A DNA stretch of 64,000 nt from Desulfobacteraceae bacterium (GTDB taxonomy: Bacteria > Desulfobacterota > Desulfobacteria > Desulfobacterales > RPRI01): assembly GCA_011391695.1 (NCBI GenBank), contig JAABQB010000006.1, positions 1-64,000 on the forward strand, read 5' to 3'. The notes under the pieces were generated by a model, which was given only the letters and a program-made list of their open reading frames with translations, searched no databases and was not told the DNA's origin. The position numbers and the translations under genes are program-made. How positions within the stretch are numbered: position 1 is the stretch's first letter; each line of letters starts with the position of its first letter. This document shows positions 17,431 through 37,642 of the stretch, piece by piece.

Positions 17431-19404
17431 ATGGAAAAAGAAGAATCAAGTTCTAAAAAATCAATAAATCCCAAGGATGTTACAATTTGTGAAGCCACGG
17501 CAAGAATGCTTGAAAAAGCTAAAAAAGACGGCGTTGAAACGGCTTTCGACAGGGCTTTAAACATGAAGGCATGCCCTATAGGCGCCGACTCTGCTTGCTG
17601 CAAGCATTGCGCAATGGGGCCATGCAGGCTTAACTCAAAAGATCCGTACGGGAAAGTAGGAGTATGCGGAGCAACGATAGATACAATCATGGCGAGAAAT
17701 TTCGCCCGCATGGTTGCTTCTGGAGCCGCATGCCATAATGACCACGGAATGGCGATGCTCGCTCTTTTCAGAGAAGTCGCAAACGGAACCAACGAAGATT
17801 ATAAAATCAAGGATCCGCATAAGCTTGCAGAGGTTGCCCGCTCGGTTGGCATTGAAGTTGAAGGACGAAGCACACAAGAGATAGCATTGGATTTGTATAA
17901 GGAACTCGAAAGGACATATACACAGGTTGAAGGCGAGATTCCTTTTGCGAAAAGGGTGCCCGAAAAAACTCTTGAGACATGGCGCAAGCACGGAATAGTC
18001 CCGAGAGGAGCCATGCGTGAAATTATGGAGCTTATGAACAGGACACACATGGGGGTTGATCAGCATTATGAAAACCTCACAAAGCAGTGCAGCAGGACTG
18101 CGCTTGCGGACGGCTGGGGCGGATCGATGGTTGCAACCGAAATCTGCGACATCCTGTTTGGAACGCCAACTCCGGTGAGCGCTGAAGTAAACATGGGCGT
18201 TTTGAAGGAGAACGAGGTCAATATTATTGTTCACGGTCACGAACCTAATCTTTTTGAGTCGATGCTGGTCTCGGTCAACGAACCGTCTCTTGTAACAGCT
18301 GCGAAAGATGCGGGCGCTAAGGGCATTAATCTTGTCGGAATGTGCTGTTCCGGAGCTGAAATGCTTTCCCGTCACGGAATTCCTCATGCAGGAAACTTCA
18401 TGTCAACGGAAGCTATCCTTGTAACGGGAGCTGTTGACGCAATGGCCGTTGATATCCAGTGCATCAAGCAGGGCCTTGTCAAAGTCGCCGAATGCTATGA
18501 TACGTATCTTTTTACAACCAATCCGCGATGCCATATCGAAGGCGCACCGCATATCGAATTTAATGAACATGATCCGAGAGCCTGCACAGATGAAATCGTT
18601 ATAAAGGCGATTACAAGGTTTAAAAACCGTAAGGCTCCCATTGATATTCCGAAGATAAAGAATATCGGAATTCACGGTTTTTCGCATGAGTACATCAATT
18701 ACATGCTGGGAGGCACTTTCAGGGGAAGCTATACTCCTTTGAATGACAATATAATAAACGGACGAATACGCGGAGTCGCCGGTGTAGTCGGCTGCACCAA
18801 TCCGAGGGTACGGCAGGACTGGGTGCACGTCGAACTTGTTAAAGAACTGATTAAAAACGATGTCCTGGTGCTTCAGACCGGATGTTCCCAGATTTCGCTG
18901 GCAAAAGCCGGACTCTATACTCCTGAAGCTGCCTGTTTTGCAGGACCCGGTTTAAGGGAAGTCTGCGAAACTGTCGGCATGCCTCCAGTCCTTGGAATGG
19001 GATCATGTGTGGACAACAGCCGGATTCTGGTTGCCGCATCCCAGATGGTCAAGGAAGGCGGCCTTGGAAACAGCATAGCGGACCTTCCTGTGGCAGGAGC
19101 TGCACCCGAATGGATGAGCGAAAAGGCGATTTGTATCGGGCAATACTTTGTCGCTTCGGGCGTTTATACGGTCTTTGGAGTGACCTTCCCGATAATAGAA
19201 AACACAAAGTTTCATAAGCTTCTGTTTGAGGGACTTGAACAGCAGGGATTCGGGAAATGGGGATTTACTCCTGATCCTTACGAAATGGCAAAAATGATGA
19301 TTGCCCATATCGACAAGAAAAGAAGCGCTCTCGGCCTTGACAAGGGAAAAGAGAGGGTGCTTGTGGATATGGCCGCCCGGAGAGAGATGTCCGCCGCGGC
19401 ATAA
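17431..19404 (+). CDS. cooS: Anaerobic carbon-monoxide dehydrogenase catalytic subunit
   Basis: 'KACPIGADSACCKHCAMGPCRLN', 'VGMCCSGAEMLSRHGIPHAGNFMSTEAILVTGAVDAMAVDIQCI', 'GSCVDNSRILVAASQM'. RBS gggagg. Confidence 0.96.
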   Translation: MEKEESSSKKSINPKDVTICEATARMLEKAKKDGVETAFDRALNMKACPIGADSACCKHCAMGPCRLNSKDPYGKVGVCGATIDTIMARNFARMVASGAACHNDHGMAMLALFREVANGTNEDYKIKDPHKLAEVARSVGIEVEGRSTQEIALDLYKELERTYTQVEGEIPFAKRVPEKTLETWRKHGIVPRGAMREIMELMNRTHMGVDQHYENLTKQCSRTALADGWGGSMVATEICDILFGTPTPVSAEVNMGVLKENEVNIIVHGHEPNLFESMLVSVNEPSLVTAAKDAGAKGINLVGMCCSGAEMLSRHGIPHAGNFMSTEAILVTGAVDAMAVDIQCIKQGLVKVAECYDTYLFTTNPRCHIEGAPHIEFNEHDPRACTDEIVIKAITRFKNRKAPIDIPKIKNIGIHGFSHEYINYMLGGTFRGSYTPLNDNIINGRIRGVAGVVGCTNPRVRQDWVHVELVKELIKNDVLVLQTGCSQISLAKAGLYTPEAACFAGPGLREVCETVGMPPVLGMGSCVDNSRILVAASQMVKEGGLGNSIADLPVAGAAPEWMSEKAICIGQYFVASGVYTVFGVTFPIIENTKFHKLLFEGLEQQGFGKWGFTPDPYEMAKMMIAHIDKKRSALGLDKGKERVLVDMAARREMSAAA

Positions 19405-20964: not shown

Positions 20965-23900
20965 TCATTTCAAGCCGGAATTATCCAAACCACCTTCATT
21001 CTCTTTCTTGGTATGATCCGATTCCCAGCGTTTATCGAGATAATACAAAACAGGAACAGTCATTCTGGAAAAGAGCAGCGACGCCACTTCCCCGGCCATA
21101 AGAGAGATGGCAAGACCCTGGAAAATCGGATCAAAGAGTATGACGGAAGCTCCTACCACCACGGCAGCGGCAGTAAGCATCATGGGCCTGAAGCGCACGG
21201 CACCTGCGTCAATCACGGCGAGATCAAGAGGCATTCCCTGTGCAACTCGGAGTTCAATAAAATCGACAAGTATAATCGAATTTCTCACAACGATCCCGGC
21301 TCCCGCTATAAAGCCTATCATCGATGTCGCGGTAAAAAAGGCGCCCATCAGCCAGTGAGCAGGGAGTATTCCTATAAGGGAAAAAGGGATTGCCGCCATT
21401 ATCACAAGCGGGGTTGAAAAGGAATGGAACCAGCCTACGACGAGCACGAATATCAGAACAAGAACCACTCCGAATGCTATTCCAAGATCCCTGAAGACCT
21501 CGTAGGTTATATGCCATTCACCGTCCCATTTTATTGAAAACCTGCGCTCTGTTTCAGGAACTGCCGAAGTGTGCTGGATAATTTTATAGCCTTCGGGGAT
21601 GGTTATTGAATCAATTTTTTTTCTCATCTCAAGAATGGCATAAACAGGGCTTTCCTTTTCTCCGGCAACATCGCCGGTAACATAAACAACCGGCATGAGG
21701 TTTTTGTGGTATATGCTCCTGTCCATATCGGTTCTGCCTGCTTTTACCAGGCTGGAAAGAGGTATGAGGCTGCCGTCTTTCCGGGAAATCTTTATTGCTT
21801 CAAGTTTTTCAATTCCAGCGCGCTCTGAAAGAGGCATTTTCAAAAAGATAGGGACATCCTCTTTTTCGCGAGGCTGATGAAGCAGCCCGGCCTGTCTCCC
21901 CGATAGTGCGAGTTCCAGAGTACCTGTTATCTGAGTAAGGCTTATACCGTGAAGGGCCGCCTTCTCCTTATCAACAGCCAGGTTATATCTCGGCTGATTT
22001 TCTTCCATGTACCAGTCAACATCCACCACGCCGGGAGTCTCTTCGAATATTTTCTTTACATTTTCGGCAAGTTGTCGCTGGCGGCTGTAATCGGGACCGT
22101 ATATTTCTGCAATAAGAGTTGAAAGAACAGGCGGACCGGGAGGCACTTCAGCAACTTTTATCCTGGCATTATACTTTTCGGCAATTTTTTGCAACGGCGG
22201 ACGTACGCGCTTTGCTATTTCATGACTCTGGTCTTTTCGCCGCCCCTTTCCCGCAAGATTCACCTGGATGTCAGCCACGTTAGGCCCCCTGCGTAAAAAA
22301 TAATGGCGCACGAGGCCGTTGAAATTGAAGGGACCGGCAGTTCCCGCGTAGATTTCATAATCGACAACTTCATTCACTGTTTTAATGTAATCTCCCATTT
22401 CAACGGCTGCCGACAGAGTCGTTTCAAGAGTTGAATATTCGGGCATGTCTATTATTATCTGGAATTCACTCTTGTTGTCGAACGGAAGCATCTTGACGTG
22501 AACTTTTTCTATCAATACGAGAGCGCAGGAAGCTAATAGCAGAGCAGCAACTATAATTATAAAAGCCGTACGCCAGAATGGTTTTGTAATCAGGGGGGTC
22601 ATGACCCGGCGATAAAGTTGCGTGCTCCAACCCTCTTTTTCATGGCCTTCCTCTTTATTCTCCGTATGTTTGATAAGCCTGACGGATGCCCATGGGGTCA
22701 CAATAAACGCCACAAGAAGCGAAAAAATCATCGCGGCAGAAGCACCAACCGGGATCGGGCGCATATAGGGTCCCATGAGGCCGCCCACAAAGGCCATTGG
22801 AAGTATCGCTGCTATAACGGTAAAAGTTGCAAGTATGGTCGGATTCCCGACTTCATCGACAGCTTCTATTGCAACTTTATGCTTCGGGCGACCCTTATTT
22901 TCAGGAAGCCTGTAGTGGCGGACTATGTTTTCAACAATAACTATGGCGTCATCAACGAGAATTCCGATTGAAAATATGAGGGCGAAAAGAGTTATCCGGT
23001 TTAAGGTATAGCCGTAAAGGAAGAATACGGACAGAGTCAAGGCCAGAGTAACAGGAATGGCAAGGGCAACGATACCTGATTCCCGCCGGCCGAGAGTAAA
23101 CCAGATGAGTATTGACACTGAAACGATGGCAATAAGCATGTGCAAAAGGAGTTCATCCGATTTTTCTTTTGACGTCTCACCATAGTGCCTTGTTATGGCC
23201 ATGTTTATGTTGTCGGGGATAATCGTTCCCTTTGCATCTTCTATTCTTGCAAGGACCCTGTTTGCGACTGTTATGGCATTTGTACCTTTCCTTTTTGCCA
23301 GAGTAAGGGTGACGGCCGGCCTTATGCCTTCGGGCAGGGCACCGCCTGAAATCTTTTTTTCTTGTGCGGCGGGACCCGTTCCAAAAAAGACGTACTGGTC
23401 GGGTTCAACCGGTCCGTCCGAAACAGAAGCTACATCCTGGAGAAATACCGGTCTTCCATCATGAACAGATACCACGATCCTTTTTACATCTTCAGCGTCT
23501 TTAAGGAATCCGCCGGTATGAACAATAACCTGACCTTCCTGTGACGGGTAAGATCCCGGATCAGATTCCTTGTTGGCGGCGCATACCATGGAGTAAACAA
23601 GTTCAGGATCAAGACCGAAAGCTGAAAGCCTTACAGGATCGATACTTACTTGAACCTGACGGCGTTCTCCACCGATCATGGTCGTTATGGATACGTTATC
23701 TTCGCGTTTTGCAATGTTTTCAACTTCTGCGGCAACACGCCTTAACGTATAATGATCAGCATCTTTTCCCCAGAAAGTCAAAGCAAGAATAGGCACATCG
23801 TCTATGTAACGGGGTTTGACAAGCGGAGGAGAGACGGAGCACGGGATTCTGTCCATGTTTGCCATTAGCTTTGACTGAAGCCGGACAATAGCCCCTTCTT

Positions 23901-24222
23901 CGTCCTGCCCGACAAAAAAACGGACAATAGCCATAGACATGCCTGGACTTGATGTTGAGTATATGTATTCTACACCGGGAATTTCCCATAAAAGCTTTTC
24001 CATGGGGGAGGTAACGCGCTCTTCCACCTCTTTTGCGCTTGCACCCGGCATGGCAACGAAGATATCAATCATGGGAACTATGATCTGGGGCTCTTCTTCC
24101 CTCGGCAGCGCAATAACAGATGCTATTCCCAGAAGGATAGACGCGATAATTATTAGAGGGGTCAGCTTTGATTCAATGAAAAAATCGGCAATTTTTCCTG
24201 CCACGCCGGTTTTAAGATTCAT
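20965..24222 (-). CDS. RND-family efflux permease (AcrB/HAE1-like)
   Basis: '[55 protein letters not shown]', '[14 protein letters not shown]', '[18 protein letters not shown]'. Confidence 0.95.
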
Positions 24223-25385
24223 GGTGACATCTCCACGCTCATTCCGTCAGCCGTATTCGGCGGCGGATCCGGCAAGTAGAGGTCTCCAGGCTTTAAGCCG
24301 GAAAGAATTTCCACTGATTTGTCAAATGACTTGCCGGTGCGGATAATCCTGTAACGGGCTTTTTTGTCATCATCAATAACATATATTCCTGTTAACTGGC
24401 CCTGGTTTACCAAAGCTGAAGAAGGAATCAAAAGCATTCTAACTTCTTCTGAAGGAATCTGAACCCTGGCATACATTCCGGTGTGAATATCGTCTTGCAT
24501 TTTAAAATTAATCTTGACTAAAAAAGAACGGGTTTTGCTGTCAGCTGCCGTTACTAAAGCGCTGATCACTCCTTCAAGAGCAAGATCATTAGCGGCCTGG
24601 ATGATGATATTAACTTTTTTACCGGTACCGGCATTTTGCACGTGCCTTTCCGGAACAACCAGTTCAATGTAATATCCTTCTCTTCCTTCAATGCCGAGCA
24701 AGGGGCTTCCCGGGGAAGCAAGATCTCCGGCTTCGATCATTTTGGCAGTGACCAGAGCGTCGTAGGGCGCAGTAATTATAGAATCCTTATTGAATGACTT
24801 CGCTGACGCGAGGTTGGCTTCGGCCTGTTTTATTCTGTGGCTTGCAGCCTGAACCATTGCTTCAGCCTGCGAGAGGGCGGCATCAGCCTGATTGTTCCGT
24901 GCTTCTACTTCTTCAAATTCCTGCCTGCTGATCGATTCATCTTTTAAAAGGTTTTGATAACGCCGGTATGTTGCGCCCGCAAGTTTTGCTGAGGCTCTGG
25001 CCGAATCGGCTCCTGCGAGAGCCGCTGTGTGCGCTCTGACTGCTTCCGCAGCAGCCTCTTCAGCCTGCTGCAATTGCGCCTCCACCTGGCTGTTATCGAG
25101 AAGAATGAGTATATCGCCCTTCTTCACGAAATCGCCTTCTTTTACATTTATCGCTTTTACTGCGGCCATCAGCTTGCTTGACAGGGTGCTTGAATCTGTC
25201 GCACGGACTGTTCCAATTGCTTCGTAGATAAGCGTCTGCTTTTCAATCCGCGCCTCCGAAATCAGGGTCTTTATATATCCGGGTATTTCCTCTTTTGAGT
25301 TGCCGGGTTCTATCTTCTCGCTGCAGCCTGAAAAAGCGATAATCAATAAATATATTATTAAAATTGACGCTGTTCTTTGAAGCAT
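24219..25385 (-). CDS. RND efflux periplasmic adaptor (MFP), lipoprotein
   Basis: Lipobox-like 'FSGCSEK'; '[39 protein letters not shown]'. Overlaps permease start by 4 nt. Confidence 0.93.
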
Positions 25386-25444: not shown

Positions 25445-28108
25445 CTAATTGAAATTTCTGAATATTGTAAGCATATTCGGGTGATGAATCTCCTCTTTCA
25501 TATCAACCGTGTGGCAAATACTGCAGTTTTTATTTGCTCCTATGGGATAGCGGTTTTTCTGATACATGAGAGGCTGAAAATTAGCTCTTTCATCTCCGAA
25601 TATGTTTGTAGCCGGATACTCTGCATGTGTTATTCCATGGCATGCCGGACACATGATTCCGGCCTCGTCTGAACGCATTTTGTATAGAGATTTAGTATCC
25701 CTGGTCCACATGTTTTGAGGCGACTGGTCCGTATCCGGAGGATTAAAACCGATATGACAGTTTAAACAGTCGGGCTGGTTTGCCCATGGCTTTCTTGGTT
25801 CAATCTGTGTAACAGAATCCGCCAGTCTTGGATAAAGATGTTTCATTAGCTTTTCAGCACTTTTTACACCCTTATTTTTTTCATATACCAGAAGACTTAA
25901 GGCATGATCTTCCATTTTCCCATGGCAGTTTGAGCACTCAAGACCGACATTGCTGTGAATGCCTCTGTAACTTTTTGAGAATCCGGATGAAGGATGGCAG
26001 TTGCTGCAGGGATCCGGATCATTTTTGGAGATATAATTGGCATGGAATCCATGTATGGATGCTGAAAGGTTTAGATGTTTTGCACTGGTGTCAGGGCTTG
26101 CCTGATCTTCGGAATGACATTTTGAGCACATTTGAGGATTCCCTGCCTGTGCAAGCTTTTCAAGATCAGTCCGGTTGGATCGGTCATGCGCCCTTACTAT
26201 ATCAAGGGCCGTTTCATCTGAAAGCCCGGTTACGCCGTTTTTTGCCCAGTTTCCGCCGTGGCATTTGCGGCATCCCATTTCGGTTGATGCCGGGACGGAA
26301 ATTCCGGTTGAGCAGAGTATTCGCCCATATTGAACATCTTTTGCCTCGATGTATATAACAGGGAAAGGAATATATGCCCCGTCTTTTCTGTAGGGAACTA
26401 CGGGGATATCGGCAGCTGAATATGCCATAATGTTTTCGTCATAATCCATTTTGCCTTCCGTTTTATTTCCCGACAAGCCCTCATTTTCTTTTATCTGGCG
26501 GCCGTAAAGAGCCTTTGAATGTTTCCAGAAATCGGTCTGCGAAGAGGGTGTGTCAAACCCATCCTCGATTCTGTAAGTCAATTCAATGTTGGCTGTAACA
26601 ATTTCAGGTGATTTCCCCCTTTTTATGAGCTGGGCGTATATGGTTGTTCCCGGGTTGGATAAACCGAAAAAGCGGTTGTTGTCTAAAATAGAGTGCATTC
26701 CCTGACCTGTCCAGCCGAGTAAAACATATTGGTCTTTCGATGGATCAAAAGGAAATGTTTTTGTTTTAAGGGAGGGAATTGAATGCTCGGAAGGGATTTC
26801 ATCCTTTCTGCCGTTTAGCTCCTTAACAATGTAGGCTGCAAGGGCCTTTACCTCTTTGCCGCTTCCCGGGAAAGGAGGCATATATTCATTTATCTTTCCC
26901 ATGCCGGTCAACATTGACTCCATACCGTAAAGTGAATATTTTTTGGCCGCTTTACGTATGTCATTTACAGGGCCTCCGACTGAGTGGCAGGAGATGCACA
27001 TAAACATGAAGATTTCCTTTCCTGCCATGAGTTGATTCTTGTCATCGATCTCTTTATTCATGGCCCATCGCGAATTTTTTAATATCCCGTTATTGCGTAT
27101 GAAATCAATTTCTTTTACCGGAATAGAGTTGGAATAAATATCTCCGTATATTACATACGGTCTTCTTCCGGCTTCCCTGATCCATTCGAAAGAGCCCATA
27201 TATAAAAGGCCCATTACAACAAGGCTGGAGGTTACAATAATTTTTAACGGAGAGGAAATGCGTACTGCCATCAGAACACCGCCTGCAAAGATAAGAGGCG
27301 AAAGAAATAAAAAGGCTTTTATAAATGGCGGGATTTCCGGTGAACTTTGCAGAATCATCAGTTTTTGGGGTTCGGGGAGGGAATTGATATACCATGATGC
27401 TGAAGCAATGAGAAAAATAAAAGGAATAATCAGCCATCTGGCGCAGTAGCTCTGTATTTTATTCCTCAAATCATTTTCCTTAATGACAGAAGAAGTAATA
27501 AAGCCGAAAAGCCCCGCAAGCATGAAAGCCATGAATGTCCTGAAAAAAAGAGACGGCCAGAAAGAGGGATTAAAAAAACCGTCCCAGAAGCTTTTGGTCG
27601 AAAGCCACTCCCCCGGAGTCAGCATGAATGTGACAATGCCATTGATTACAAAAAGCGAAAGCCATCCGAATACAAAATAAAGCCAGCCTACGGCAAGATG
27701 TTGCCTCCTGTTCATCTTCCCAAAGGTATAGTAATACACGAAAAGCGCAACAATCTCTCCAAGGAAAAAAACCCATTCCGTAGCGAAGCCGAAAACAAAA
27801 TTATGTATCAGAATAGATGTGGCGGCAGGGTTTAAAAGAGAGATGGTAAACCATATGCCAACACCTGTAATTGCTCCGAAGACCATGGAGACAAGAAGAA
27901 AAAATCTGGTATGCTTTCTGGTATATTCGAGAATACCGAAAGAGTTTTCCCTGTAGCCTTTCATTTCAGTCAGGACAAGGAACAGTCCGCCGCCGACAGC
28001 GAAATGAGCAACATAAACATGAATAACCGCGATGAAGGCGATAAGAAAACCGCCCCCAAGGAAATCAAGCTCCCAGACAGGATAGTTGATTATATAATTG
28101 TACGGCAT
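25445..28108 (-). CDS. Cytochrome bd-like (CydA-type) membrane protein fused to a C-terminal octaheme c-type region
   Basis: N-terminal multi-TM with 'HVYVAHFAVGGGLFLVLTEMKG' and Q-loop-region-like 'EAGRRPYVIYG'; eight CxxCH motifs (CISCH, CRKCH, CSKCH, CSNCH, CSNCH, CLNCH, CPACH, CSICH). Start set at MPYNYIIN; ORF-track extension is repeat C. Confidence 0.88.
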   Translation of the reverse strand: MPYNYIINYPVWELDFLGGGFLIAFIAVIHVYVAHFAVGGGLFLVLTEMKGYRENSFGILEYTRKHTRFFLLVSMVFGAITGVGIWFTISLLNPAATSILIHNFVFGFATEWVFFLGEIVALFVYYYTFGKMNRRQHLAVGWLYFVFGWLSLFVINGIVTFMLTPGEWLSTKSFWDGFFNPSFWPSLFFRTFMAFMLAGLFGFITSSVIKENDLRNKIQSYCARWLIIPFIFLIASASWYINSLPEPQKLMILQSSPEIPPFIKAFLFLSPLIFAGGVLMAVRISSPLKIIVTSSLVVMGLLYMGSFEWIREAGRRPYVIYGDIYSNSIPVKEIDFIRNNGILKNSRWAMNKEIDDKNQLMAGKEIFMFMCISCHSVGGPVNDIRKAAKKYSLYGMESMLTGMGKINEYMPPFPGSGKEVKALAAYIVKELNGRKDEIPSEHSIPSLKTKTFPFDPSKDQYVLLGWTGQGMHSILDNNRFFGLSNPGTTIYAQLIKRGKSPEIVTANIELTYRIEDGFDTPSSQTDFWKHSKALYGRQIKENEGLSGNKTEGKMDYDENIMAYSAADIPVVPYRKDGAYIPFPVIYIEAKDVQYGRILCSTGISVPASTEMGCRKCHGGNWAKNGVTGLSDETALDIVRAHDRSNRTDLEKLAQAGNPQMCSKCHSEDQASPDTSAKHLNLSASIHGFHANYISKNDPDPCSNCHPSSGFSKSYRGIHSNVGLECSNCHGKMEDHALSLLVYEKNKGVKSAEKLMKHLYPRLADSVTQIEPRKPWANQPDCLNCHIGFNPPDTDQSPQNMWTRDTKSLYKMRSDEAGIMCPACHGITHAEYPATNIFGDERANFQPLMYQKNRYPIGANKNCSICHTVDMKEEIHHPNMLTIFRNFN

Positions 28109-28129
28109 TGTTCTAAACTCACTAAAACG

Positions 28130-28246
28130 GCTTTGTAAAAAGTCATTCTCACACAAAGACCACGGAGGACACAAAGAAAAACCTGAATGTTTTCAATAGA
28201 TTCTTCTTCGTGCCTTTGTGTCTTCGTGTGAACAATTGCTTTTTAC
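28130..28246. repeat. Repeat family C copy 1
   Basis: Near-identical reverse complement of 59854-59972; contains CACACAAAGACCACGGAGGACACAAAG...CTTTGTGTCTTCGTGTG. Confidence 0.85.
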
Positions 28247-28253
28247 CAGTTCA

Positions 28254-29324
28254 TTAAGACGGCTTTACCTGCAGTGCACACCTGATAATATAAATGATAA
28301 CAACTGTGCTGACAATCGTGGCCACCAAAAACATTATCATGGGAGAATACTGATAAATTGTTTTAAGTTTTTCGACGGCAAAGTAAGGTTTAAGATAAGC
28401 TGTTCTGACCATATCCCTTACGAGTACCATAAAAATTATACTGATTATTGTAGCCCAGGCCGCAGGCCACACTTTTTTTATAAAGCCGAAAACAAGCGCT
28501 GTAATACCGGCAAATAGACCTGCAAGGAAAACAGCAGAATGAACCATCTCTCTGCCAAGGAAAAGAAGCATTATGTCTCTTGGCAAACTGATTAAAAACC
28601 ATATTCCGACACAAAACTGGACTATGGTAGCGTATATAAAATATTTCATGCCTCTGGTAATATTTATATCTGAATGACTGACGCCGTTTTTCTTTTTTCG
28701 TTGCCATGTAATTGCAGTAAAAAGACCGCTTACTGCAATGGATGCAATTACAAAGTGAAAAAACCGCGGGAAAAAAGTTGGTTCTGAAAGATTGAGAATT
28801 GTTCCTGACGGATTGGCAAAATATCGGACCCATGAGCCCGGGACAAGCATTAACGTCATGTTATTTGTAAAGAAAAAAGCTGTAACCAGTAGAAGCAAGG
28901 CCGATAACCCTGCGGCATACTTTCTGTTCAGGGCGAGGCGGTCGAAATTGAATTTATATATATATGCTGCATAATAGGCTGTTATAAGCAGAAAAATAAC
29001 AGACAACCAGTAAACGGCCATAAGAATTGAGCTTGTATAAAAGAAGTTTCCATAAAGAACCTGCAAAAAGAGCAGAGGCGCCACACCGAAGTTAATTGTA
29101 AAGGCTATTATAAAAGTATTTTTTTGAGAAATCTCTTTTTCAAGACTAATAAGACTGCTCTCGGATTGGCGGTTAATCGCGCTGATAAATGCTATTATTG
29201 CAGACCCCAGCATGATATTCATCAGAAGTATATGGGCTGTAAAGGTTGTAATCAGCAGGACCTTGAACCATGCCCAGTGAACGGGTATTATGTCAGGGGC
29301 AGGGATAAGAGACGCGGTATTCAT
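28254..29324 (-). CDS. Multi-TM CydA'-like membrane partner of the bd-like octaheme protein
   Basis: 'PDIIPVHWAWFKVLLITTFTAHILLMNIMLGSAII'; about 9 TM segments; no CxxCH. Confidence 0.75.
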   Translation of the reverse strand: MNTASLIPAPDIIPVHWAWFKVLLITTFTAHILLMNIMLGSAIIAFISAINRQSESSLISLEKEISQKNTFIIAFTINFGVAPLLFLQVLYGNFFYTSSILMAVYWLSVIFLLITAYYAAYIYKFNFDRLALNRKYAAGLSALLLLVTAFFFTNNMTLMLVPGSWVRYFANPSGTILNLSEPTFFPRFFHFVIASIAVSGLFTAITWQRKKKNGVSHSDINITRGMKYFIYATIVQFCVGIWFLISLPRDIMLLFLGREMVHSAVFLAGLFAGITALVFGFIKKVWPAAWATIISIIFMVLVRDMVRTAYLKPYFAVEKLKTIYQYSPMIMFLVATIVSTVVIIYIIRCALQVKPS

Positions 29325-30030
29325 ATAAACCAGTTCCTGTTATGATATCTTTTATGGAAAATTCGGTTAATTTGCCTTCAGCAAATATCTTTAACTTTGA
29401 GTCATCGTTTTTGATTGACGACAGCATGCTTTCTGCCTGAACAGGATCTATAGCACATATGGCCCAAGCTGCAAGACCGCGCAACATTGTATCCCGTGAA
29501 CTGATAAAGGGGATGAGAAACGGCATGGAATCCTTAACAAGCTCAGGCCTTAAGCGGGCAATCCGACCGATACCCCATACAACTCCCTGCTGGAGAACTT
29601 CATTTTCAAGATAGTTTCCATTTTCATTGATAAAGGAGATTAAAATACGTGCATATTCATCTCCAAGTTTTTTGTTTCGTGCGATTATTTCGCCCATGGC
29701 TTCGGGTGAACCCCAGCCGATTCCTCCGGATTCGTCGTTTAAATTCCACATGAGGCGGCGCATTACAACACGTGCGGATTCGATATCTGCATCCGCAATA
29801 GAAGAAACCGTTTCCCCCATAGCGGTGACAGCCCGCCATTTAACCAGTTCATCGGTATTATAGAGACAGGAAAAAAGACAATTTACAACCTGTCTTCCGG
29901 GAAATTTAAGGATTCCCGAAAGCTGTTCATTAAAATCATTTCCGGACAGAATTTCAAAAACTCTTTTTTTTAAACTCCTTCCTCCGATTCGGTTGGTATC
30001 CATGCTTTTTCCGTCGTTCGTATATCGCAC
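29293..30030 (-). CDS. HEAT-repeat protein, DVU0298-like
   Basis: 'LVKWRAVTAMGETVSSIADADIESARVVMRRLMWNLNDESGGIGWGSPEAMGEIIARN'. Confidence 0.8.
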   Translation of the reverse strand: MRYTNDGKSMDTNRIGGRSLKKRVFEILSGNDFNEQLSGILKFPGRQVVNCLFSCLYNTDELVKWRAVTAMGETVSSIADADIESARVVMRRLMWNLNDESGGIGWGSPEAMGEIIARNKKLGDEYARILISFINENGNYLENEVLQQGVVWGIGRIARLRPELVKDSMPFLIPFISSRDTMLRGLAAWAICAIDPVQAESMLSSIKNDDSKLKIFAEGKLTEFSIKDIITGTGLYEYRVSYPCP

Positions 30031-30414: not shown

Positions 30415-31599
30415 TTATCCTGTTATTGCTTTTCCTATCCTCTTTCCCAGTTCGATACATGCTTCAATGGATTGATTATCCGGCACATATTGAACCTTCA
30501 AGCCGGGGTCGATGATTTCGATATTCATTGATTCAAGTTCATTTTTTATAAGATTCACCGATTCTCCGCTCCACCCGTATGAACCGAAAGCAGCCCCGAT
30601 TTTATTTTTCGGCTTAAGTCCCTTCATGTATGTCAAAAAATCGCTGACTGTCGGAAACAGGCCGTTATTTAATGTGGGGGAGCCGACTATTATTGCCTTT
30701 GCATCCAGAACCTCGGTCATTATATCGCTGCGGTTACATTTTCTAAGATGCATCGGTCTTGCTTCTACTCCCTGCTCGCTTAATCCCGTAACAATTGCTT
30801 CAGCCATCTTTTCGGTGCTGTGCCACATGGTATCATATATGACCACGGCTTTATTCTTTGTCTCCTGTCTGCTCCACCTGATATACGCGTTAATGATTTT
30901 TCCTGGATCTTTGCGCCATAATATACCGTGATCGGGGCATATCATGTTGAATTCAAGTTTGAGATTCGTTACCTGTTCAATCAATTTTAAAATGAGCGGA
31001 GAATAGAGCAGAAGAATATTGGCAAAATATTTTTTTGCATGGGGCATGATGGCATCCCCGATTACGTCATCGAACTTTTCATGCCCTGCATAATGCTGCC
31101 CGAAAGCGTCGCTTGAAAAAAGAATCTTGTCTTCCTTAAGATATGAGAACATGCTGTCCGGCCAGTGAAGCATCCTTGTTTCCATAAAAGTGATCGTTCT
31201 GCTTCCTATAGAAAGCTCTTCACCGTTTTCAACCGGATGATAATTCCACTTCTGCCTGAAATGGCGCGAAAGGTTTTTCTGCCCCATTTTGGAGCAGAAG
31301 AGAGGCTTCTCTTCTCCCACTTTGTGCATTATTCGGGGCAGGCTCCCGGAATGATCCATCTCAGTGTGATTGCTGATGACATAATCAATTTTTTTGGGAT
31401 CAATTATTTTCGATATATTATCGATGAGCTGATCGGCGAATTCGGCTTTAACAGTATCTATGAGAACTGTTTTTTTATCCAGAATCAGAAAAGCGTTGTA
31501 GCTTGTCCCCATGTCGACTGAATATCCATGAAAATCTCTTATATTCCAGTCATTAACACCAACATCAAAAATATTTTTTGCTATCTGTATAGGTTTCAT
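30415..31599 (-). CDS. Flavodiiron protein (FprA/ROO-type A flavoprotein)
   Basis: 'DYVISNHTEMDHSGSLPRIM' metallo-lactamase-like diiron ligands; 'ICPDHGILWR'; flavodoxin domain 'VVIYDTMWHSTEKMAEAI'. Confidence 0.96.
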   Translation of the reverse strand: MKPIQIAKNIFDVGVNDWNIRDFHGYSVDMGTSYNAFLILDKKTVLIDTVKAEFADQLIDNISKIIDPKKIDYVISNHTEMDHSGSLPRIMHKVGEEKPLFCSKMGQKNLSRHFRQKWNYHPVENGEELSIGSRTITFMETRMLHWPDSMFSYLKEDKILFSSDAFGQHYAGHEKFDDVIGDAIMPHAKKYFANILLLYSPLILKLIEQVTNLKLEFNMICPDHGILWRKDPGKIINAYIRWSRQETKNKAVVIYDTMWHSTEKMAEAIVTGLSEQGVEARPMHLRKCNRSDIMTEVLDAKAIIVGSPTLNNGLFPTVSDFLTYMKGLKPKNKIGAAFGSYGWSGESVNLIKNELESMNIEIIDPGLKVQYVPDNQSIEACIELGKRIGKAITG

Positions 31600-31905: not shown

Positions 31906-32871
31906 TTAGAGTTGGTCGTTCAGTTCGATTACCTTCTTTTCTATTTCATCACGTACATTTCTCATGAATTCAATTGATTTGCCTGCAGGATCGGGAATGT
32001 CCCAGTTTTCGATTCTGGCTCCCGGTACAAAGGGGCATTCTTCCCCGCAACCCATGGTGATAATGATATCCGGTTTTTCCTTTGAAATTGCCTGCTCTAT
32101 CGTTTTTGGCGTGCGGAAAGCCATGTCTATCCCCTTTTCATGCATGACCTCAATCATAAGAGGATTGATTGCATCAACAGGCGTGCTGCCGCCATTAAAG
32201 GCATCAATTCTGTCTCCGGCAATATAGCCTGCAAAAGCACTTGACATCTGGCTGCGGCAGGCGTTTTCCCTGCAGGCAAACAGGATTTTCTTCCTGGTGA
32301 GATAAGGCCTTAAGATATTACCGGCCGCTTCTCTGACCTCAACTGCTGCTGTGGGATGTGCTTCCATATCACCCCGCTTTTCTATCCTGCGGTACGTCAA
32401 ACTTCCTTCGAAACCTGCGCCAACAGCATCGAAAAAATATTTTGCGGTAAGCTTCATGCCTTCAAACAGATTGGCTCCTTTTGTTGCCCCGAGTGCAAGA
32501 AGAAAGCCGCGCCTGTTTTTACGGCCAGGATCAGTAAGGTTCAGCCTGTATTTGCGCGCCCATAATGTCTGACTACGGTCTATCAGGGCTTTAGTCTGGG
32601 CCGGGGTATTGTAAAAAAAGATGGGGGTGGCAAGAACAATAATGTCAGCCTCGCGCAAAAGAGGGTAAATTTCATTCATATCGTCTTCTATAGGGCAGGT
32701 TCCTTTCTTTTCACACACGCTGTATTCCATGCAGGGCATGATATTTTTTTTTGCAACCTCAATAATGTGTGTCCTGACACCTGCTTTTTCAACTTCATTC
32801 ATGAAAGATGAAAGAAGAAAATCAGTATTCCCTTTTTTTCTGGGGCTCCCCATTATTCCAAGCGCTAACAT
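31906..32871 (-). CDS. NADPH-dependent FMN reductase domain fused to ArsC/LMW-PTP domain
   Basis: N-terminal 'GIMGSPRKKGNTDFLLSSF'; C-terminal 'KKILFACRENACRSQMSSAFAGY' (CX5R P-loop) and 'PDIIITMGCGEECPFVPG'. Confidence 0.93.
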   Translation of the reverse strand: MLALGIMGSPRKKGNTDFLLSSFMNEVEKAGVRTHIIEVAKKNIMPCMEYSVCEKKGTCPIEDDMNEIYPLLREADIIVLATPIFFYNTPAQTKALIDRSQTLWARKYRLNLTDPGRKNRRGFLLALGATKGANLFEGMKLTAKYFFDAVGAGFEGSLTYRRIEKRGDMEAHPTAAVEVREAAGNILRPYLTRKKILFACRENACRSQMSSAFAGYIAGDRIDAFNGGSTPVDAINPLMIEVMHEKGIDMAFRTPKTIEQAISKEKPDIIITMGCGEECPFVPGARIENWDIPDPAGKSIEFMRNVRDEIEKKVIELNDQL

Positions 32872-32883
32872 TATCAGATCTCC

Positions 32884-33222
32884 CTATTTAACATGACAAC
32901 CCTTGCAGGTCACAGGGCCGGTCTTTAATCCGGCATTGGTTTTTTCGCGGTGGCACTTCTGACACTGGTTCATCACTTTTTTATTTTCAAGCTTTCCCTC
33001 GTCTTTAAGCTTTTGGACTATGCCCGGTGTTTGAGGAAACAGGTTATGACACAGGTTGCAGTCGCCAAGAGAATCCTGGTGCAACTTATGCTTAAAGGTT
33101 ACATTGCCTGTGGTGCCGCCGGAAAGAATTATCTGTCCGGCTCCTTTGTTTTGTGCCCAAAGAAGAGTTGAAACAAGGATAAAGCCTGCCACCAATATAA
33201 CAGTTTTTGCTTGCCTTTTCAT
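32884..33222 (-). CDS. Triheme c-type cytochrome (c7/c3-like), exported
   Basis: Signal peptide; three CxxCH (CNLCH, CQKCH, CKGCH). Confidence 0.88.
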   Translation of the reverse strand: MKRQAKTVILVAGFILVSTLLWAQNKGAGQIILSGGTTGNVTFKHKLHQDSLGDCNLCHNLFPQTPGIVQKLKDEGKLENKKVMNQCQKCHREKTNAGLKTGPVTCKGCHVK

Positions 33223-33241: not shown

Positions 33242-34276
33242 CTAGTATGATTCTTCGTAAGAAAGATCTTCTTTTGTAACTTTTCCCCTGAAAATATAAT
33301 AAGCCCATGCCTGGTAGGCAATAACGGCAGGGATGAACATAATGACTACAACCAGCATGATCTTTAAGGTTAGTGGACTGGATGCGGCGTTATATGCAGT
33401 AACGCTGAAATCGGTATTTATGCTTGATGGAAGCATATTGGGATAGAGCCCTATTATTCCGAAAAAAACAGATCCAAGAATAACGATTGCGGATGAAAAC
33501 CACGCTTTGAAAAAGTCATCATTCTTAATAAAAAACCTTGCGGCAAAGAGGGCTGCGACAGTTAACAGGATATCAAAAAACAGGATGGGGTTTGCCAGGT
33601 AATTATCATACAGCTTCGTAAAAAACCAGCTTGCGCCTAAAAAGCAGAGTGCGATTATCAAAAGAAACGGCCAGAGCACAAGAGCGGTTGATTTTGATCT
33701 TTCATGAAGTTCACCATCTGTTTTAATGGCCAGCCAGACGGAGCCGTGAAAGAGAAAAAGAAGTAAAAACAACAATCCCCCAATAATTCCGTAAAAATTC
33801 AAAAGGTCAAAAAACGAGCCACTGGATACACCGGACTGCTCGATCGGGAGTCCCTTGAAAATATTTGCAAATGTAATTCCAAACAAAACAGCCGGAACCA
33901 GGCTGCCGGCAAAGATAGAAATGTCCCAGAAATTCCGCCAGATTTTTTTATCAATCTTACCCCTGAATTCAAAAGCGACTCCGCGAAGGATAAGAGCAAA
34001 AAGAATGAGCATAAGTCCCGAATAAAGAGAAGAAAACATGATGGCATAGGCAAGCGGAAAAGCAGCAAAAGTGACTCCGCCCGCGGTAATGAGCCAGACC
34101 TCATTGCCATTCCAGAGGGGGCCGACGGAATTTATCATTATTCGTTTTTCGAAGTCATTTTTTCCAAGAAAAGGGTACAGTATTCCAATTCCGAAATCAA
34201 AACCATCGGTCATAAAGAAAAGAGCCCAGAGTAAACCCCAAAGAAAAAACCATATTCCCTGCAGATCCATTGTCAC
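33242..34276 (-). CDS. cydB: Cytochrome bd ubiquinol oxidase subunit II
   Basis: 'FFMTDGFDFGIGILYPFLGKNDFEKRIMINSVGPLWNGNEVWLITAGGVTFAAFPLAYA'. Confidence 0.96.
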   Translation of the reverse strand: MTMDLQGIWFFLWGLLWALFFMTDGFDFGIGILYPFLGKNDFEKRIMINSVGPLWNGNEVWLITAGGVTFAAFPLAYAIMFSSLYSGLMLILFALILRGVAFEFRGKIDKKIWRNFWDISIFAGSLVPAVLFGITFANIFKGLPIEQSGVSSGSFFDLLNFYGIIGGLLFLLLFLFHGSVWLAIKTDGELHERSKSTALVLWPFLLIIALCFLGASWFFTKLYDNYLANPILFFDILLTVAALFAARFFIKNDDFFKAWFSSAIVILGSVFFGIIGLYPNMLPSSINTDFSVTAYNAASSPLTLKIMLVVVIMFIPAVIAYQAWAYYIFRGKVTKEDLSYEESY

Positions 34277-35577
34277 CCCCGCGCGGGATTCTTTACAGCA
34301 TTTTTAATTATCAGATAAAAACCTGTAATTCCCAACAGTCCGTAAATAAGGATAAAAGCTATAAGAGAAACAAGAACCTGTGAAGAAGCAATCGGTGATA
34401 CCGCATCGGAGGTTTTCATAAGTCCATAGACGATCCATGGCTGCCTTCCCACCTCCGCCAACACCCACCCCGCTTCGATGGCGACATAGGGCAGCGGAAT
34501 AGACAATACCATCGCTTTTAAATATAAAGGACTTTCAAGGAGTCTGTTACGTCTTAACCATCCTATAATAGTAAGAAGGATGAAGAGAGTTCCAAGTCCC
34601 ACCATTGTTCTGAAGGAAAAAAGAGAAATAAGAACCGGGGGTCTTTCTTCCCTGGGGAAGTCCTTAAGCCCCTTCACTTCGGCGTTAAAATCGTGATAAC
34701 CGAGAAAGCTCAAAAGTCCGGGGATAGCCCCGAATTCAACAAAATTTCTTTCATTTTTTTCATCAGGAATAGCAAAAAGAGTAAGCGGCGCTCTCCTGGC
34801 GGTTTCCCAATGCGCCTCCATTGCCGCCAGTTTTGCGGGCTGAACTTCCGACACGTGAACCCCGTGCATATCTCCTTCGATGGCCGTGAAAATAGAAAAA
34901 ATAAGCCCGAAGATTAAACCTATTTTAAAAGATCTTGTAAAAAACGTTATGGATTGTTTCTTCAGCAGATGATATGCGCTAACACCCATTACAAAAAAAG
35001 CACTTACAATGTAAGCTGCGCTGATTGTATGAAGAAACTGGAGAACGGCAAATTTCTGAAAAACGACAGCGGAAAAATCGGACAGTTCAGCCCTCCCGTT
35101 CCGCAGGACATAACCCACGGGATGCTGCATCCAGGAATTTGCGATGATTATCCAGACAGCGGAAAGGGTTGAAGCACCTGCAATAAGCCACATTACGGCA
35201 GCGTGGGCTTTCGGGGAAAGCTTTCTCCAGCCAAAGATCCAGATGCCAATAAGAGTTGACTCAAGAAAAAAGGCGGCTGTAGCTTCAATGGCAAGCAGAG
35301 ATCCGAAAATATCCCCCACGAATGCTGAATAGCGCGACCAGTTGGTCCCGAACTGGAATTCGAGAGTAATCCCGGTTACTATTCCAAGGCCAAAATTTAT
35401 CAGGAAGATCTTGCCCCAGAATTTGGTCATGGAAAGATATATCTTGTCACCGGTTACGGCATATCTGGTTTCCATTATAGCAATCATAATGGAAAGCCCG
35501 AGCGTGAGCGGAACAAACAGAAAATGAAACATGGTCGCTGTTGCAAACTGCAGGCGCGACAGCAAAACAATATCCAT
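34273..35577 (-). CDS. cydA: Cytochrome bd ubiquinol oxidase subunit I
   Basis: 'LSRLQFATATMFHFLFVPLTLGLSIMIAIMETRY', 'EVGRQPWIVYG'; overlaps cydB start by 4 nt. Confidence 0.97.
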   Translation of the reverse strand: MDIVLLSRLQFATATMFHFLFVPLTLGLSIMIAIMETRYAVTGDKIYLSMTKFWGKIFLINFGLGIVTGITLEFQFGTNWSRYSAFVGDIFGSLLAIEATAAFFLESTLIGIWIFGWRKLSPKAHAAVMWLIAGASTLSAVWIIIANSWMQHPVGYVLRNGRAELSDFSAVVFQKFAVLQFLHTISAAYIVSAFFVMGVSAYHLLKKQSITFFTRSFKIGLIFGLIFSIFTAIEGDMHGVHVSEVQPAKLAAMEAHWETARRAPLTLFAIPDEKNERNFVEFGAIPGLLSFLGYHDFNAEVKGLKDFPREERPPVLISLFSFRTMVGLGTLFILLTIIGWLRRNRLLESPLYLKAMVLSIPLPYVAIEAGWVLAEVGRQPWIVYGLMKTSDAVSPIASSQVLVSLIAFILIYGLLGITGFYLIIKNAVKNPARG

Positions 35578-35992: not shown

Positions 35993-36430
35993 TTAAAGAC
36001 CGAGCTTTTTTGCTATTTCCCGGCCATAATCCTGGGCCATTGTTACACCTCCCCCAAGGGAACTGGATTTTAACCTGAGGGAACCGCTGACCATATCCAT
36101 ATTAAAAATATTCTTCATTGTGTTAAAAATACGATCCGGCGCTTCGCCACTCCAGCCGAAAGCGCCAAAAGAGCCGCCTTTTTTCCCTGCAAGATTTGCT
36201 TTTTCTGCAAGGAATAAAAAAGTCTTCATACCCTGCATCATATCCCCGTGATATGTGGCTGATCCGAACAGATAGGCATCATATCCGTTAAGAGCGGTTT
36301 CATTTTTGATCTCGTTTACATTGACAACAGAAACATCAGCTCCGGAAAAGCGAAGGCCTTCTCCAATGAGCTCTGCTATCTTACTGGTTTCACCTGTTCT
36401 TGTTGCATATATAATTAAAGCTTTTGGCAT
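35993..36430 (-). CDS. Flavodoxin
   Basis: 'ALIIYATRTGETSKIAELIGEGLRFSGADVSVVNVNEI...YLFGSATYHGD...GAFGWSGEAP'. Confidence 0.93.
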   Translation of the reverse strand: MPKALIIYATRTGETSKIAELIGEGLRFSGADVSVVNVNEIKNETALNGYDAYLFGSATYHGDMMQGMKTFLFLAEKANLAGKKGGSFGAFGWSGEAPDRIFNTMKNIFNMDMVSGSLRLKSSSLGGGVTMAQDYGREIAKKLGL

Positions 36431-36619: not shown

Positions 36620-36994
36620 TTATGCTTTCCATAGGCCGTGAACGTTGCAGTATTCACGCGCAGTAACTTCTTTGGCATCTATTGTAAAAAAGGCTTCAGG
36701 AGCCTGCCCTGGATCCAGAAACTGCCTGTATATTTTCCCGTCCGCTATAATTTCAATAAATTCTATAAAGTGTTTTTCTTCCATGGGATGTGCTACGTTT
36801 CCGACCTTTACTTTTATACCGCCGGAAGTTTTTTCTATAACGGGCACATGTTTTTCCTTTGAAGCATCAACTGTGTTTTCAATCATCAGCTTCATCGGTT
36901 GACCGCAACATACGAGCTCCCCAACACTGCCGTGCAAAACTTCAACTACATTGCCACAAACCAAACATTTATAAACTTCAAGTCTTTTTGCCAT
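36620..36994 (-). CDS. dfx: Desulfoferrodoxin / superoxide reductase
   Basis: '[30 protein letters not shown]', '[34 protein letters not shown]', '[10 protein letters not shown]'. Confidence 0.97.
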
Positions 36995-37066: not shown

Positions 37067-37642
37067 TTAATAATTTTCTCCAAGCAGTTCAAAATGCGCT
37101 TTCGGATGCGCACATGCCGGACAAAGATCCGGGGCTTCATTTCCTTCATGCAGATAACCGCAGTTCCTGCAACGCCAGACCGTCTTTTCCTTTCTTTTAA
37201 AAACCAGGCCTGTTTCAATATTGGCAGCAAGATCCCTGTACCTTTTTTCATGCTGCTTTTCTGCAACGGATATTTTTTCAAATACAACTGCTATTGCTTC
37301 AAATCCTTCTTCCCTAGCGGTTTTAGCAAAAGAAGGATAAAGGTTGGTATGTTCATGATTTTCACCGGCAGCGGCAGTCTTCAAATTTTCAAGAGTTGTT
37401 CCAACAACTCCGGCCGGAAAGAATGACGATACTTCTACTTCTCCGCCTTCCAGGAAATTAAAAAATTTCTTGGCATGCTCTTTTTCCTGATTAGCGGTTT
37501 CTTCAAAAATGAAAGCAATCTGTTCAAATCCTTCTTTTTTTGCCTTGCTTGCGAAATATGTATAACGGTTGCGGGCCTGAGATTCACCGGCAAATGCTGC
37601 AAGAAGATTTTTTTCAGTCTTTGTGCCTTTTACTGTAGTCAT
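37067..37642 (-). CDS. rbr: Rubrerythrin
   Basis: Diiron ferritin-like domain 'AGESQARNRYTYFASKAKKEGFEQIAFIFEETANQEKEHAKKFF' plus C-terminal rubredoxin 'WRCRNCGYLHEGNEAPDLCPACAHPKAHFE'. Confidence 0.97.
   Translation of the reverse strand: MTTVKGTKTEKNLLAAFAGESQARNRYTYFASKAKKEGFEQIAFIFEETANQEKEHAKKFFNFLEGGEVEVSSFFPAGVVGTTLENLKTAAAGENHEHTNLYPSFAKTAREEGFEAIAVVFEKISVAEKQHEKRYRDLAANIETGLVFKRKEKTVWRCRNCGYLHEGNEAPDLCPACAHPKAHFELLGENY

Follow-up and report, generated by a model that had tools for sequence, protein, structure and literature searches.

Two adjacent genes on the minus strand of a 64,000-nt stretch of DNA from a Desulfobacteraceae bacterium (GCA_011391695.1, contig JAABQB010000006.1, positions 1-64,000 of the forward strand; hereafter the window) code for CydAc, a CydA-like membrane protein with eight haem c-binding motifs, and for P2, a second CydA-like protein devoid of such motifs. 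Judging from their sequences, these proteins probably form a bd-type O2 reductase that would be fed by cytochrome c independently of quinol. To our knowledge, nearly all biochemical work on the bd superfamily concerns quinol oxidases. O2 consumption is known from strict anaerobes, sulfate reducers among them, and some of this activity has been assigned to the periplasm, for which we know of no clear catalyst. The CydAc-P2 pair is a concrete, testable candidate for O2 consumption fed from the periplasm; it is widespread and, in the window, lies beside genes for superoxide reductase, rubrerythrin and a flavodiiron protein. The two genes are as follows.

25445..28108, minus strand: CydAc; CydA core (aa 21-313) with eight transmembrane (TM) helices, His/Met monohaem cytochrome c (aa ~355-430), beta domain and heptahaem domain (aa ~440-887)
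28254..29324, minus strand: P2, a CydA' paralogue; nine TM helices, no haem c; near-obligate partner of CydAc

CydAc retains the residues of the O2 site

The open reading frame (ORF) of CydAc spans 25445-28174 on the minus strand. Translation probably begins with the ATG at 28108, yielding a protein of 887 residues, because relatives start at the matching residue; the TTG at 28174 is an over-extension. A first-pass annotation of the window, made from the sequence alone, had described this ORF as a CydA-like multi-TM domain joined to eight CxxCH motifs, and both parts were confirmed. Pfam Cyt_bd_oxida_I matches CydAc above its cut-off (5.9e-10), hhalign relates it to CydA (96.9%, E 1.6e-10), and the eight motifs compare with 0.02 expected in shuffled sequences. 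An AlphaFold2 model of CydAc built from a 65-sequence alignment (pLDDT 89.6, pTM 0.86) has eight TM helices followed by the haem domains, and its best 20 Foldseek matches in the PDB are all bd-oxidase subunits, which establishes the CydA fold. The EAGRRPYVIYG segment, assigned in that annotation to the GRQPW region, indeed aligns with EVGRQPWIVYG. The charge pattern of CydAc is mostly positive-inside and fits an N-out topology with eight TM helices and the C-terminal haem domain in the periplasm. Both ends of the protein would thus be periplasmic, where the c haems must be attached.

We read the ligand columns from an alignment of 68 bd-superfamily proteins, including 32 haem c-type CydA sequences, with the Escherichia coli numbering tied to it via the canonical CydA of the window. 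The residue-to-haem assignments that we use are those established for bd oxidases. The haem d ligand is H19 or E99 (PMC8509429), and Glu107 is the proposed terminal proton donor, 7.8 A from the haem d iron (PMC13189123). The H19, E99, E107, E445 and R448 columns are kept in all 32 haem c-type CydA proteins and correspond to the invariant H30, E111, E118, E312 and R315 of CydAc. In contrast, the b558 ligands are missing: the H186 column holds Phe or Leu in the octahaem group, the single-haem group has other residues there but never His, and the M393 column holds Ile, Leu or Val in the octahaem group. Alignment of CydAc with the sequence of the Geobacillus CydA structure (5doq) agrees with this pattern of kept and lost ligands. 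In addition, the TM6-TM7 loop of CydAc (residues 244-259) comprises ~16 residues; hence, the protein has no Q-loop. By these residues, the O2-reducing half of CydA is retained in CydAc and the quinol-oxidising half is lost.

P2 is a CydA paralogue and near-obligate partner

The gene next to CydAc had been described as a multi-TM, CydA'-like partner without haem c, and this description holds. P2 comprises 356 residues without any CxxCH motif and has a predicted nine-TM bd fold (pLDDT 93.7), and the top 16 Foldseek matches of its model are all bd subunits. In profile comparisons it resembles CydAc (96.2%, E 2.6e-9) and, weakly, CydA (E 5e-4). We considered whether P2 might be a CydB and rejected this, as the CydB profile reaches only 0.2%; P2 is thus a paralogue of CydA.

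P2 adjoins CydAc in 69 of the 74 named loci with room for it (65 by ORF calls and four more after a check of start sites), and in the phylum sample CydAc stands beside P2 in 28 of 29 fetched P2 loci. Loss of P2 from the five remaining named loci (Desulfonema magnum and others) was rejected. In all eight further genomes checked, which have no adjacent P2 or an unlinked one, it is present elsewhere or as a contig-end fragment, and the pair is therefore unlinked, not lost. The two genes are >1 Mb apart in L036 (genome G161) and in L066 (Desulfonema magnum). P2 is therefore a near-obligate partner of CydAc.

The residues of P2 bear on how electrons might enter the complex. P2 keeps H31 in the H19 column and H190 in the H186 column, and H31, H190, M299, R303 and R307 are invariant, while the Glu pair of CydA is lost. 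This bears on a possibility suggested in the first-pass annotation, that the complex is not an O2 reductase but an outward conduit or a quinol:cytochrome c oxidoreductase. In such a complex, quinol would be oxidised at a b-type haem of P2 held by H190 and perhaps M299, and electrons would exit through the eight haems c towards acceptors in the periplasm or outside the cell. The invariant H190, equivalent to the H186 that CydAc has lost, together with H31 and M299, speaks for such a conduit, as do the long multihaem domain, which is typical of conduits, and the exported multihaem cytochromes that are the free relatives of the heptahaem module. However, the models and the alignment reveal neither a Q-loop in P2 or CydAc nor an M393 equivalent, the invariant E111, E118 and E312 of the O2 site would lack an evident purpose in a conduit, no porin-cytochrome gene family was found recurrently beside CydAc loci, and the surrounding genes form an oxygen-defence island. 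The ligand alignment, proposed in that annotation as the test between a conduit and an ordinary oxidase, sets aside both. The conduit loses because the ligands of the di-haem O2 site are intact, and CydAc is not an ordinary oxidase because its b558/quinol half is missing. We regard the conduit as rather unlikely.

A split bd oxidase, with the di-haem O2 site in CydAc and a relocated b-type haem in P2 (H190 with H31 or M299), appears doubtful. In it, the two membrane subunits and the eight haems c would make up a junction at which quinol, periplasmic cytochromes and O2 exchange electrons, so that the enzyme could be supplied by either pool. The literature that we consulted for comparison describes no such layout.

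The haem c region comprises two parts

The eight CxxCH motifs of CydAc (residues 371, 613, 661, 701, 725, 781, 820 and 862) had been counted correctly as a C-terminal set. They do not form one block, as the first lies in a monohaem class-I cytochrome c domain of its own. Pfam recognizes a cbb3-III-type cytochrome c (PF13442) at residues 359-427 and cytochrome c7-like haem stretches beyond. For haem 1, the invariant M410 is a candidate sixth ligand (His/Met). Outside the motifs, five His residues are invariant (H641, H686, H689, H718 and H828) and two more are 98% conserved (H875 and H876). These seven additional His residues for seven haems suggest that the multihaem part transfers electrons via bis-His haems and leaves no catalytic site open.

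The region from residue ~440 onward is also found as free exported cytochromes with seven to nine haems in other genomes of the phylum. Thus, the haem chain of CydAc looks like a recruited module. Six such proteins (L216, L217, L218, L219, L220 and L221; 7-9 CxxCH) share with CydAc the beta domain (PPYNT..AQV...) and the haem module; in L218, repeated FG-GAP-like units precede them.

Distribution of the CydAc family

The eight-haem fusion is conserved across 80 named loci fetched from several phyla. They belong mostly to the Desulfobacterota, and others are from Nitrospirota, Ignavibacteriota/Bacteroidota, Verrucomicrobiota, Gemmatimonadota, KSB1, Krumholzibacteriota and Zixibacteria. Exactly eight CxxCH motifs are present in 68 of the 70 copies counted as complete. 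Such conservation excludes a chance origin of the fusion. In L139 (10004-12603), CydAc is encoded as two overlapping ORFs, with the break after haem 1 and before the heptahaem part (1 + 7 CxxCH); this may represent a frameshift, a sequencing error or a natural split.

In a sister group (L018-L031, L205 and L206), P2 accompanies the same CydA core, which there carries just one His/Met haem c. This suggests that the haem-1 cytochrome c, the shared part, is the basic entry point for electrons and that the heptahaem domain extends it. A small group has three haems c (L037 and L041). In L041 (7010-11435), the CydA with three CxxCH is followed by P2 and then by a separate 501-residue cytochrome with eight CxxCH, which bears only a weak resemblance to the fused heptahaem module. 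In our tree, all haem c-bearing CydA proteins form one clade (100/100) apart from the quinol oxidases (100/100), and the bd-like (OR-N-like) Nitrospirota proteins without haem c are separate from it (98/95). The eight-haem group within the clade is less firm (83/93). A type III pantothenate kinase-like gene, recognized by eye only, is often found near P2-CydAc, mostly in Desulfovibrionaceae (L084, L120, L122, L126, L131 and L133).

An oxygen-defence island in the Desulfobacterales

The gene order on the minus strand of the window is rubrerythrin, desulfoferrodoxin, flavodoxin, CydA, CydB, trihaem cytochrome c7, FMN-reductase/ArsC-like fusion, flavodiiron protein, DVU0298-family HEAT-repeat protein, P2 and CydAc. 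Besides the CydAc-P2 pair, the genes of the locus are as follows.

29293..30003, minus strand: DVU0298-family HEAT-repeat protein; neighbour in Desulfobacterales only; start judged from relatives
30415..31599, minus strand: flavodiiron protein (ROO/flavorubredoxin-type); part of the oxygen-defence island
31906..32871, minus strand: FMN reductase-low-molecular-weight (LMW) phosphatase/ArsC-like fusion; island gene
32884..33222, minus strand: trihaem cytochrome c7/c3-type periplasmic cytochrome; candidate electron donor
33242..34276, minus strand: canonical CydB
34273..35577, minus strand: canonical CydA; H18, E98, E106, H183, M325 and E375 all present
35993..36430, minus strand: flavodoxin
36620..36994, minus strand: desulfoferrodoxin (superoxide reductase)
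37067..37642, minus strand: rubrerythrin (peroxide reductase)

The canonical CydAB noted in the first-pass annotation is thus present at 33242-35577, and the proposal that CydAc belongs to a separate, divergent bd-superfamily complex is supported. The HEAT and P2 genes overlap in the window, and P2 and CydAc overlap or are at most 9 nt apart in most relatives, which supports co-transcription. The order FMN reductase, flavodiiron protein, HEAT, P2 and CydAc is kept in five relatives (L061, L064, L078, L104 and L107), several of which also have CydAB, desulfoferrodoxin, rubrerythrin or c7 at the locus. L036 also has this island, but without CydAc; CydAc is elsewhere in that genome (G161), and P2 remains with HEAT in the island. 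L070 has a rearranged version of the island. We found no match to a haem-copper oxidase in the genome of the window, which encodes several cytochrome c3-type proteins and dsrA. The host is a sulfate reducer, in which CydAB and the CydAc-P2 complex appear to be the membrane O2 reductases.

The HEAT protein is a DVU0298-family member (NF045662, 4.4e-72), as annotated, with a likely start at the ATG at about 30003. Its co-occurrence with the pair fares less well than that of P2: 41 of the 79 phylum genomes encode the family, most of them without P2, and its linkage is limited to the Desulfobacterales. We therefore rejected it as a conserved component of the complex.

The locus also suggests that the substrate could be a small molecule other than O2, such as NO or H2O2, with the same architecture and electron path. 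bd-type haems interact with NO and peroxide, the flavodiiron protein of the island has a profile relation to the anaerobic NO reductase flavorubredoxin, rubrerythrin is encoded in the locus, and a prismane/hybrid-cluster-family protein is encoded on the opposite strand ~6 kb past CydAc (17431-19404). Nevertheless, the roles assigned to the retained residues in bd oxidases are O2 reduction and proton delivery, and no nitrite or NO respiration genes were seen among the annotated neighbours, which makes a different substrate improbable.

Two further features of the surroundings were recorded. The island fusion (31906-32871) combines an NADPH-dependent FMN-reductase-like domain with a low-molecular-weight phosphatase/arsenate-reductase-like domain, and its gene adjoins the flavodiiron gene in relatives too. 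Genes for an RND efflux pump and adaptor (20965-25385) are directly downstream of CydAc on the same strand, an arrangement common to the near relatives L061-L064.

Proposed function

We propose that CydAc and P2 are the two subunits of a bd-superfamily enzyme. It would reduce O2 at a di-haem site within the CydA core, and its electrons would come from cytochrome c in the periplasm in place of membrane quinol. Low-potential periplasmic cytochromes, such as the cytochrome c7 encoded upstream, would deliver electrons to the heptahaem domain, from which they would pass to the His/Met monohaem cytochrome c, then to the di-haem site of CydAc near the periplasmic face and finally to O2. Protons would reach this site past the conserved Glu pair. 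The most likely role of the complex in this sulfate reducer is the removal of O2 beside CydAB and the flavodiiron protein. We infer haem occupancy, the electron path, O2 as the substrate and the role in detoxification. Such an enzyme would be a cytochrome c-driven bd oxidase with a covalently attached haem wire.

Several points weigh against this proposal. Some positive charge is present on the last periplasmic-side segments of CydAc. Outside the Desulfobacterales, CydAc loci have no consistent oxygen-related neighbours, and P2 alone recurs with CydAc. We found no activity, haem or biochemical data in the literature for any member of the family. Finally, such fusions did not count as proper bd oxidases for Degli Esposti et al. 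(2015), as they lack CydB (PMC5322542). Since only P2 is constantly linked beyond the Desulfobacterales, we argue for an oxygen-defence role in that lineage only; O2 reduction itself is argued from the residues.

The lack of a tested family member in the literature and the loss of the CydA Glu pair from P2 would also suit a non-catalytic protein, be it a haem-based sensor, a protein for storage or assembly, or a CydA duplicate in decay. However, the active-site residues are invariant across divergent phyla, the eight haem sites are kept at ~40% identity, and the gene pair is near-obligate; a non-catalytic function is thus very improbable.

Comparison with known systems

Canonical CydAB (that of the window; PDB 6rko and 5doq) has in common with CydAc the fold and H19, E99, E107, E445 and R448. 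In contrast, CydAc has no H186, M393, Q-loop or TM9, it carries eight haems c, and P2, a CydA paralogue, takes the place of CydB. Two paired CydA paralogues instead of CydA-CydB are also found in the CydAA' oxidases (archaeal, and the proposed OR-N1/OR-N2 pairs of Nitrospirota/Nitrospinota). Unlike CydAc, the sampled Nitrospirota bd-like proteins have no CxxCH and branch apart.

Judged from descriptions of the OR-C family of the bd superfamily, the CydAc family probably belongs to it. OR-C proteins carry haem c on CydA, which is matched here by the eight CxxCH of CydAc and the single one of the sister group. The superfamily is now split into qOR, OR-C and OR-N (PMC13189123, PMC10839748). As far as citing papers describe it (PMC13189123, PMC10839748, PMC11707229), OR-C (Murali, Gennis and Hemp 2021) has no quinol site, an absence that CydAc shares. 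In cable bacteria, a CydA homologue that carries a cytochrome c domain in the periplasm has been put forward as possibly reducing O2 (PMC13047784). It shares with CydAc the CydA core, the periplasmic haem c and the proposed feeding by periplasmic electrons. Unlike CydAc, it is described with a cytochrome c domain only, and it is probably of the short, single-haem type.

Degli Esposti et al. (2015) reported >50 'chimaeric' cydA-multi-c genes and then discarded them (PMC5322542). Those fusions likewise combine CydA with several haem c sites, without CydB, in delta-proteobacteria, and they are almost certainly the CydAc family. In contrast to that dismissal, CydAc comes with a bd-fold partner of its own (P2) and its O2-site residues are intact, and this analysis of residues and partner argues for assaying the fusion. 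The fusion and the OR-C family are thus already in print, and CydAc belongs to a known kind. To this, the present analysis adds how the ligands are divided between CydAc and P2, the CydA' paralogue as a near-obligate partner, the minimal form common to the groups, where the heptahaem module probably came from, and the island of oxygen-defence genes.

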